A DNA stretch of 64,000 nucleotides from Acinetobacter sp. ANC 4178 (GTDB taxonomy: Bacteria > Pseudomonadota > Gammaproteobacteria > Pseudomonadales > Moraxellaceae), in NCBI RefSeq assembly GCF_004331175.1, contig NZ_SJOD01000008.1:1-64000 (forward strand). The letters run 5' to 3'. The position numbers were made by a program, and so were the translations under genes. Of the stretch, positions 58,745 through 61,020 are shown piece after piece. Every line of letters starts with the position of its first letter. Position 1 is the stretch's first letter. Below the pieces are notes generated by a model. It was given only the letters and a program-made list of their open reading frames with translations. It was not told the DNA's origin and did no database searches.

Positions 58745-59521
58745 ATGGAAAACTCAGCAAAACTGGTGATTCGTGATTTACATAAAACCTTCGGGGACAA
58801 TGAAGTCCTAAAAGGTGTATCCCTGAATGCTAACGCAGGCGATGTCATTAGTATTATTGGTTCTTCAGGTTCAGGAAAAAGTACCTTCCTCCGCTGCATC
58901 AACTTCTTAGAACAACCGAGTCAAGGTTCCATTCAACTGAATGGCGAGCAACTCAATACTGTGCTAGACAAATCAGGTAACTTAAAAGCGACCAGCCCAA
59001 AACAGTTACAGAAAATGCGCACCCAACTGATGATGGTGTTTCAACATTTTAATTTATGGTCACATATGACCGTACTGGAAAACATCATTGAAGGTCCCAT
59101 TCATGTTTTGGGTTTAAAACGTGCCGAAGCTGAAGAGCGTGCGCGTAAATACTTAAGAAAAGTGGGGCTGGCTGAAAGTGTAGAAACTAAATATCCATCC
59201 TTCTTATCAGGTGGGCAACAACAACGGGTAGCGATTGCACGTGCATTGGCGATGGAACCCGAAGTGATGTTGTTTGATGAGCCGACCAGCGCTTTAGACC
59301 CTGAACTGGTGGGTGAAGTGTTAAAAGTGATGCAAAGTCTGGCAGAAGAAGGTCGAACCATGATTGTAGTGACCCATGAAATGGGCTTTGCTCGGCATGT
59401 CTCCAACCATGTGATTTTCTTGCATCAAGGCAAAATTGAAGAACAAGGTGACCCGAAAGAAGTCTTGATCAATCCCAAAAGTGAACGACTCAAACAGTTC
59501 CTTGAAGGCAATTTTAAATAA
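58745..59521 (+). CDS. hisP: Amino acid ABC transporter ATP-binding protein, HisP type
   Basis: The 258-residue ATPase closely follows E. coli HisP in pattern: Walker [22 protein letters not shown]-loop [18 protein letters not shown], signature [20 protein letters not shown], Walker [19 protein letters not shown], switch His in [13 protein letters not shown]. It powers uptake of histidine or basic amino acids. AGGAGAAA precedes the ATG. A GacA box for the following small RNA begins 7 bases after its stop. Confidence 0.95.
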
Positions 59522-59527
59522 ATGCTT

Positions 59528-59545
59528 TGTAGGTTACAGCTTACA
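59528..59545 (+). promoter_or_regulatory. GacA box upstream of small RNA locus 2
   Basis: TGTAGG-TTACAG-CTTACA matches the GacA/UvrY-type consensus TGTAAG-N6-CTTACA at 11 of 12 fixed positions. The arms extend to CTTTGTAGG and CTTACAAAG (59525-59548). It is centred about 65 bases before the predicted RNA start. Confidence 0.72.
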
Positions 59546-59601
59546 AAGATTCAGGAAGATGTCTTCTAGATCAGGTTGAATATTTTTCATATGATGGGGA
59601 C

Positions 59602-59730
59602 ATAGAGAACAGGATGTTCCAAAACATAAAACAATAATGATAAGTGACACCATCAGGATGTGAGGTACGACAGGAGTTATACCTAAGCAGCGCATACGAA
59701 AAAGCCCGACAGGATGTCGGGCTTTTTTAT
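59602..59730 (+). ncRNA. Candidate CsrA-sequestering small RNA (RsmX/Y/Z type), locus 2
   Basis: About 129 nt from a start estimated by TATGAT (59590-59595) to the terminator. No ORF. Four hairpins expose GGA: GAAC-AGGAT-GTTC (59607-59619), CATCAGGATGTG (59651-59662), GAC-AGGA-GTT (59669-59678) and GCCCGAC-AGGAT-GTCGGGC (59704-59722). CAGGATGT recurs, close to the CsrA consensus ACARGGAUGU. Length and organisation match Pseudomonas RsmX, RsmY and RsmZ, which are activated by GacA and titrate CsrA/RsmA. A GacA box lies upstream. The -35 region is weak, as expected for an activated promoter. Confidence 0.8.
59704..59729. terminator. Terminator of small RNA locus 2, with AGGAT loop
   Basis: GCCCGAC (59704-59710), loop AGGAT, GTCGGGC (59716-59722), then T6. 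A run of A before the stem lets it also end rarA on the minus strand. The loop is a CsrA-type site, as at locus 1. Confidence 0.92.
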
Positions 59731-59745
59731 TTTGACTAAACAGTA

Positions 59746-61020
59746 TTATTGCTGCTGCTGTTCTTGCATCCAACGGCGCTGCTGTAAACGCTCACCTTCA
59801 ACTTCACGTTTATTACGCGCAGATTCGTACAGCTTGGTACCTTTCAATTCTGGAGGCAAATATTCTTGCATTACAAAATGCTCAGGGTAATTATGCGGAT
59901 ATAAATAGTCCATCCCATAGCCTTGCTGTTTCATGAGTTTGGTTGGTGCATTACGTAAATGTAACGGCACAGGCAAATTTGCTGTTTTTTCCGCCAAATC
60001 CAGCGCTTTATTTATTGCCAGATAAGTACTGTTACTTTTGGCACTGGTCGCCAAATACACGGCACATTGTCCTAAAATAATTCGTGCTTCAGGCATGCCC
60101 ACGGCTTGAACCGAACGGAAACACTCTCCAGCCAACAGCAAGGCATTCGGATTAGAATTGCCTATATCTTCCGAAGAGGCAATCAGCATGCGACGCGCAA
60201 TAAATACGGGGTCTTCTCCGCCCTTCAGCATCCGTGCCATCCAATATAAAGCCGCATCGGGATCACTGCCACGAATCGACTTAATAAAGGCCGACACCAA
60301 GTCATAATGCTGTTCACCCGATTTGTCATATCGCGCAATATTTTGCTGTGCAACACGCACGACAATGGCATTGGTGATGATATTTTCAACATCTGCTTCA
60401 AAGGTACTGGCTATTAGATCGAGTAAATTCAGTGCCTTACGTGCATCTCCTGCGGCAAACTGCAACAAGGCATCAAATTCTTCAATTTGAATAAAGCGTT
60501 GTTTTAAAAAAGTATCTTGTTGTATCGCACGTCGAATCAGCTCCTGAATGGCCTCATTGCTGAGCGCATTTAAGGTATAGACCTGACAACGTGACAATAA
60601 GGCGCTATTGACTTCAAAGGAAGGATTTTCTGTGGTCGCACCAATCAACGTAATCTTGCCCTTTTCCACCGCATTCAATAAAGCGTCTTGCTGTGATTTA
60701 TTGAAACGGTGAATTTCATCAATAAACACCACAGGGGTCAGCAAATCACCACTTTCTGCAATGATTTCTCGTAGTTCTTTTACACCCGTATTTAACGCCG
60801 ACAGACTGACAAAGGGACGATCCACTGCTTGTGCCAACAGCAAGGCAATCGTGGTTTTTCCTACACCTGGTGGTCCCCAGAAAATAATCGACGGTAAATG
60901 CCCTTGATCAATCATCTGACGTAATGGTGCTTGCGCTCCCAATAAGTGATCTTGCCCAATAATTTCAGACAAATCACGAGGACGAAGACGTTCTGGAAGC
61001 GGAATCTGAGTGTCTGACAT
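59746..61020 (-). CDS. rarA: Replication-associated recombination protein A
   Basis: The 424-residue AAA+ ATPase of the RarA/MgsA/WRNIP1 family acts at stalled replication forks. It opens [21 protein letters not shown], has Walker [17 protein letters not shown], Walker [20 protein letters not shown], sensor [21 protein letters not shown] and a C-terminal tetramerisation region with [21 protein letters not shown]. Full length, with a Gln-rich end. It converges with the small RNA locus. Confidence 0.95.

Follow-up and report, generated by a model that had tools for sequence, protein, structure and literature searches.

A putative GacA-activated, CsrA-titrating RNA at the hisP locus belongs to a multicopy RNA family of Acinetobacter chromosomes and plasmids

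GacSA acts as a global regulator of virulence (PMC5295007), and A. baumannii cannot do without CsrA on rich media (PMC12802169), but an RNA linking the two in Acinetobacter is, in the literature that we searched, a prediction in A. baylyi only. The hisP locus of Acinetobacter sp. ANC 4178 raised the question of whether its non-coding stretch (59525-59730) encodes such a link. In the window (the whole 64-kb stretch of DNA that was analysed), this locus follows an ORF (58745-59521) encoding a HisP-like ATPase, whose best NCBIfam match was HisP (444.8 bits, just missing the cut-off of 466), and precedes a convergent, RarA-like ORF (59746-61020); a 79-aa antisense ORF (59534-59773) appeared on the mechanical ORF list only. 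We consider it highly probable that the locus yields a GacA-activated, non-coding RNA that titrates CsrA, and we infer its GacA control, CsrA binding and sponge function from the evidence described below. The larger finding, supported by sequence comparison, is that this RNA would belong to a genus-wide, multicopy and plasmid-borne family of Gac/CsrA type, hereafter R1, which offers an RNA link between GacSA and CsrA.

The locus begins with a GacA/UvrY-type box on the plus strand at 59528-59545 (TGTAGG TTACAG CTTACA), which was read directly and matches 11 of the 12 half-site positions of the UvrY consensus TGTAAG-N6-CTTACA (PMC4682653); it is the sole site with at most one mismatch to the consensus within the window. 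A -10-like hexamer, TATGAT, follows at 59590-59595 (+), and a search of the plus strand gave no sigma-70 -35/-10 pair, which fits the expectation for an activated promoter. With its start taken from the -10 and its end from the terminator, the predicted small RNA would occupy 59602-59728 (+), about 127-130 nt, which places the box centre near -66. Its parts, all on the plus strand, are hairpin 1 (59606-59620, loop AGGA at 59611-59614), whose outermost pair is missing in the hisP-locus copy, an A-rich linker (59621-59650, mean identity 84%), a 3-bp hairpin 2 (59651-59662, loop AGGA at 59655-59658), hairpin 3 (59663-59684, loop AGGA at 59672-59675), and an intrinsic terminator of 14 pairs (59698-59728) with AGGA at 59711-59714 in its loop region. 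The predicted RNA holds these four AGGA motifs (starts 59611, 59655, 59672 and 59711), and a fifth at 59553 lies 5' of the predicted start.

Shuffling the dinucleotides of the locus showed which of these repeats exceed chance. The sequence CAGGATGT occurs three times, versus a mean of 0.002 in the shuffles, and AGGA four times, versus 1.2 (1.3% of shuffles reach four). The plain GGA count (4 versus 2.9) showed no excess over chance at the locus and was dropped as evidence. The predicted fold of 59602-59731 (-32.9 kcal/mol, z -4.0) was more stable than 200 of 200 shuffles, and the 3-bp hairpin 2 was not present as such in this single-sequence fold. The initial annotation had described the GacA box, an activated-type promoter, a recurring sequence close to the CsrA consensus and a terminator carrying AGGA in its own loop region, all of which we recovered; its count of four GGA hairpins plus a terminator was revised to three GGA hairpins plus the GGA-loop terminator, four in total.

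The annotation had also pointed to the Rfam models for RsmX, RsmY, RsmZ and CsrB as a check, and this check failed, as no model exceeded its gathering threshold. Rfam covariance models run against the 64-kb window returned no match to these four families at threshold, nor to any other family. In a lax search of 59300-59900, the match to CsrB (59549-59732, E 0.017 within this search) scored 16.7 bits against a threshold of 71, RsmX, RsmY and RsmZ were unlisted even at E up to 10, and many of the sub-threshold matches were to the terminator. As no Rfam Rsm/CsrB family reaches threshold, homology to these families was dropped: the RNA would work like RsmX/Y/Z, and descent from them is without support. 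The C4 antisense RNA, the most abundant sRNA group of A. baumannii, was likewise dropped as a candidate, with no C4 match at threshold in the window.

BLAST searches with 59522-59745 hit eight further places in the ANC 4178 genome, all with E of at most 7e-10, and 141 of the 149 Acinetobacter genomes had a match. We collected 49 copies from the ANC 4178 genome and from the loci that scored best in a single search of the genus, which makes them no random sample, and aligned 39 of them to build the covariance model R1, leaving out L006 (degenerate), L037 (cut terminator) and eight regarded as redundant (L011, L016, and one copy each of L021, L022, L024, L026, L033 and L036). The model found ten copies in the ANC 4178 genome (E 1.2e-11 or better), including the one at the hisP locus. 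At E 1e-8, at least one copy was present in 142 of 148 Acinetobacter genomes and none in the other six, with a median of 6 copies per matching genome (range 1-13). Among the eight genomes missed by BLAST, the model recovered G129 (6.7e-17) and G097 (1.7e-9) under laxer filters. In 115 genomes across the order, the ANC 4178 genome gave the sole match at E 1e-6, and other genera of the family gave weak matches only (best 2.1e-6); a wider taxonomic range, which these two sets left without a firm match, was therefore dropped. At this sensitivity R1 is confined to the chromosomes and plasmids of Acinetobacter. A family pattern also matched a contig of A. baylyi DSM 14961.

The structure is conserved along with the sequence. 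RNAalifold on the 39 copies, unprompted, produced four hairpins with GGA in every loop, and 97.1% of cells pair in the structure named above. Ten pairs were changed on both sides, versus a shuffled mean of 1.6 (0 of 500 shuffles reach ten), and were spread over the four helices as 2, 1, 3 and 4 pairs; these counts come from 39 related sequences, in which one inherited change is counted several times, and hairpin 2 has only three pairs. Sliding the pairing partners destroyed the covariation signal. In a column profile of the 47 of 49 copies longer than 300 bases, loop columns were 96-100% conserved, and three to six AGGA, some outside loops, were present in 47 of 48 chromosomal/genus copies (L037 left out). 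The R1 family has several GGA motifs in hairpin loops on a conserved structure, except in 4 of the 18 plasmid or phage-record copies discussed below. The hisP end is common to the hisP-locus copy and its relatives L009-L014, and neighbouring DNA otherwise varies between copies. The copy on contig C7 of the ANC 4178 genome is without box and without hairpin 1. One contig of genome G121 carries three tandem copies (L034). We also observed tandem arrays of two or three copies in about 3 kb in several species (L031; L034; G061:C1:3762893-3764965; G084:C1:1466146-1468128; G123:C10:75976-78965).

The box keeps its position too. Counting from the core start (59600 at the hisP locus), the best box-like word lay 71-74 nt upstream and matched 10-12 of 12 positions in 47 of 48 evaluable chromosomal/genus copies; L006 was the single evaluable copy that failed, and the second L026 copy was set aside because its locus ends 71 nt upstream of it. 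Over 47 copies the twelve half-site columns had a mean identity of 92%, compared with 62% in the six-base spacer and with 50% and 60%, respectively, in the 20 bases preceding and following the box, and the box had the lowest entropy among 81 upstream windows of the same shape. The -10-like hexamer was TATNAT in 23 of 49 copies and TAATAT in 22, and neither was found in four (L003, L006, L008 and one of L034). In the ANC 4178 genome, nine of the ten copies have a box of 9-11/12 in place (9/12 in the C8 copy), and five of the ten sites with at most one mismatch precede R1 copies while two precede other GGA-bearing RNAs. A genome-wide excess of box sites was dropped as evidence, as these ten sites compare with 11 in the reversed control; the evidence is their position, not their number. 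As is expected of a Gac/Rsm-type sRNA, the predicted RNA has a GacA/UvrY box upstream. The conservation of box and GGA loops across Acinetobacter, which had been proposed as a check, was found, with the boxes in place and loops nearly invariant, and the RsmX/Y/Z-type organisation was borne out by box, spacing, GGA loops and terminator being kept together genus-wide on covarying hairpins.

Two of the five other box sites in the ANC 4178 genome precede non-coding stretches unrelated to R1, both on the minus strand of G000:C3: X1 (box 449025-449042, RNA region 448750-449049; L147, L154) and X2 (box 349759-349776, RNA region 349500-349779; L146, L169). In a sample of 119 genomes of the bacterial family, 26 of them listed as Acinetobacter, X1 was found in 25 of the 26 (20 over most of the query, five in the 3' part only) and X2 in 19, with one short match each outside Acinetobacter. 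The X1 box matched 11-12 of 12 positions at one fixed place in all 15 sequences compared, and these mostly have three GGA in 155 nt (range 3-6). The X2 box matched 10-12 of 12 positions in 14 of 15 sequences and 9 in one, with 5-8 GGA over the 15 sequences and seven in 155 nt in the ANC 4178 copy. Rfam searches of X1 and X2 gave one chance-level match only (E 0.78). X2 looks like a classical RsmY/Z-like RNA, X1 less so.

The regulator that acts at the R1 box need not be GacA, and a CsrA sponge driven by another regulator of the NarL/LuxR type would explain why many R1 copies read TGTACG instead of TGTAAG. We consider this unlikely, as the 18-bp consensus is the same as that of UvrY (PMC4682653) and a perfect 12/12 box precedes X1 in nine of 15 sequences. 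The distribution of GacA bears on the same question. The GacA/UvrY model NF007018 gave a best match of 261-274 bits, under its 280-bit cut-off, in 148 of 149 genomes (267 bits in ANC 4178), and the second-best matches among those listed reached at most 128. Genome G115, the sole such case of the 149, had only weak GacA matches (best E 8e-23) yet keeps four R1 copies, which would suit another regulator, and the six genomes without an R1 copy at E 1e-8 do have GacA. csrA is single-copy in ANC 4178; its product opens with MLILTRRVGETLMIGDQVSV, as the canonical protein does, and keeps an arginine that we take to be R44 of the RNA-binding surface. A GacA orthologue and CsrA are present in the same genome.

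These data are consistent with a GacA-activated sponge, in which phosphorylated GacA would bind the box, some 66 nt before the start, and switch on an RNA of about 128 nt, whose four hairpins, each with an AGGA loop, would capture CsrA dimers and so free CsrA-controlled mRNAs. Alternatively, the RNA could act by base pairing, its conserved loops and A-rich linker binding mRNAs with Hfq; CsrA would then be irrelevant or secondary. The linker is fairly conserved, and A. baumannii has a network of Hfq-bound RNAs (PMC12802169). However, conservation is highest in the AGGA loops that recur on covarying stems, which is the pattern of CsrA sites, and a GacA-type box precedes nearly every copy. A weaker argument against this role is that the names of the A. 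baumannii transcripts ABUWs005, ABUWs061, ABUWs081 and ABUWs083 are absent from the main text of two A. baumannii interactome papers, where these RNAs may carry other names. A base-pairing role in place of CsrA capture thus appears quite unlikely.

These four transcripts make up Group 3 of A. baumannii AB5075; they are homologous, measure 128-147 nt and were seen by RNA-seq, and PMC5320573, where the Northern blots shown are of other RNAs, could assign them no function. They are placed at 236876 (+, ABUWs005), 3057837 (-, ABUWs061), 3766134 (+, ABUWs081) and 3863958 (+, ABUWs083) (PMC5320573). Genome G061 has R1 copies at 230979 (+), 2940177 (-) and 3672006 (+), three in tandem from 3762893 (+) and one more on a 7.6-kb contig. 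The distance to tmRNA is 15,965 nt for the 2940177 copy and 15,927 nt for ABUWs061, that to the RNase P RNA gene rnpB 50,499 and 51,481 nt, and the strands are the same. We take ABUWs061 to be a member of the R1 family by synteny, as tested on the G061 copy rather than on the hisP-locus copy. ABUWs005, ABUWs081 and ABUWs083 are likely members as well, judged by order, strand and size only. R1 gives these Group 3 transcripts a testable function.

The R1 core also matched 488 plasmid records (485 from Acinetobacter, three from Klebsiella), 418 of them over at least 80% of the query. Under the core, no feature was annotated in the best 40 plasmid matches (one record being without annotation), which says little because the gene table of the collection contains no RNA genes. 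Five phage-collection records matched as well; the one fetched, a partial record of 5.1 kb that includes a sulfate permease gene, may derive from a plasmid. We examined 17 of the 488 plasmids and this phage record (L092-L109), hand-picked from lists of best and of spread matches and thus a non-random sample. All 18 copies scored 66-153 bits with R1 and have a box of 9-11/12 at -70 to -73, and 17 have TATNAT. In eight of the 17 plasmid loci, a toxin gene and an HTH/regulator gene lie 65-77 nt downstream, with the toxin annotated as RelE/ParE-type in seven (L098, L099, L102, L104, L106, L107 and L108) and named differently, with gene length and order unchanged, in L103. VapBC lies 91-141 nt downstream in three (L097, L100 and L109), a NadS-RelE pair faces the R1 copy in two (L092 and L101), and four have no adjacent toxin-antitoxin genes (L093, L094, L096 and L105). 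The plasmid at L098 carries OXA-72.

Most of these copies lie within XerC/D (pdif) modules. We scanned for pdif-like sites, defined as having at most 5 mismatches of 24 to a pdif XerC/D consensus, and found one between 350 and 315 nt upstream of the core start in 16 of the 18 loci; the exceptions were L104, whose record stretch has only 75 nt upstream, and L106, which has no such site. There were 37 pdif-like sites in the 18 loci versus none in mononucleotide shuffles, and sites given in PMC10132070 fit the consensus used. A terminator-like hairpin is common to many plasmid modules in the stretch between pdif and box. An inverted repeat, TTATCC...GGATAA, was also seen between pdif and box in many copies, including those at G000:C3:241270 and G000:C6:36218 of ANC 4178, and resembles DnaA boxes. 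Two contigs of ANC 4178, C6 and C4 (345 and 467 kb), carry copies with pdif-like sites, at -319 (C6:36218, 5 mismatches) and -329 (C4:371127, 3 mismatches), which makes R1 transfer between plasmid and chromosome plausible.

This distribution, multicopy, plasmid-borne and pdif-associated, with some copies decayed, is also what would be expected of a mobile terminator-like repeat spread with XerC/D modules and without any regulatory role. We regard such a repeat as very improbable, given that copies, those at the hisP locus included, retain box, loops and covarying stems, and that no pdif-like site was found near the hisP-locus copy itself. The plasmid copies do include a reduced subfamily: four of the 18 (L095, L103, L104, which is pMAC of ATCC 19606, and L108) retain one AGGA only, and by eye the motif is gone from three hairpins while box, -10 and stems are retained. 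A pure CsrA sponge would hardly tolerate this loss, so this subfamily may be decaying or may have another role. The one-AGGA copies count against the sponge reading, as do G115 without a GacA orthologue, the R1-free genomes with GacA, the decay of the C7 copy, the lack of an Rfam match, and box-site number and plain GGA count at chance level.

Even so, we hold to a GacA-activated RNA that titrates CsrA as the best explanation of the locus, and its extension to plasmids suggests that these, of which at least one among those examined carries a carbapenemase gene, add to the CsrA-titrating capacity of the cell. We put forward as a tentative possibility that plasmids carry GacA-switched CsrA sponges as pdif cargo, often next to toxin-antitoxin genes, and that host CsrA would thereby be tuned through plasmid content and copy number; the reduced subfamily might act differently, for example by competing for activated GacA. 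In the literature searched, no report was found that links the multicopy family to CsrA, describes its plasmid copies or places an RNA inside dif modules; on the last point, PMC13141974 and PMC12907356 make no mention of small or non-coding RNA in their main texts.

What was already known is that CsrA-regulating RNAs were predicted for A. baylyi ADP1, and what is apparently new, with no report found, is the multicopy family and its plasmid spread. PMC5568370 gives two RsmA-regulating sRNAs predicted in Acinetobacter ADP1, among others credited there to its reference 12, and a CsrB-like RNA of A. baylyi is attributed to Kulkarni 2006 in PMC12442408, which also records ADP1 lineages with truncated csrA. 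Set beside R1 by description only, the ADP1 sRNAs share its genus and proposed function, but PMC5568370 lists two loci for them and, where it does so, mentions no plasmid copies. The Group 3 sRNAs of AB5075 resemble R1 in their similar size and multicopy nature, and ABUWs061 holds the position of an R1 copy. The enterobacterial CsrB and CsrC likewise have a UvrY box and repeated CsrA-type sites, whereas the Acinetobacter RNA is much shorter, with four sites, and its box lies at about -66, as predicted from the inferred start, compared with about -183 for csrB (PMC4682653). In Pseudomonas, a duplicated rsmX is known (PMC7911923), and RsmQ is a plasmid-borne translational regulator (PMC9928087). 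It is RsmX, RsmY and RsmZ of Pseudomonas that R1 resembles in its GacA-type upstream box, its length (about 110-130 nt) and its several GGA loops, and from which it differs in its median of six copies per genome, its presence on plasmids and the AGGA in its terminator loop.
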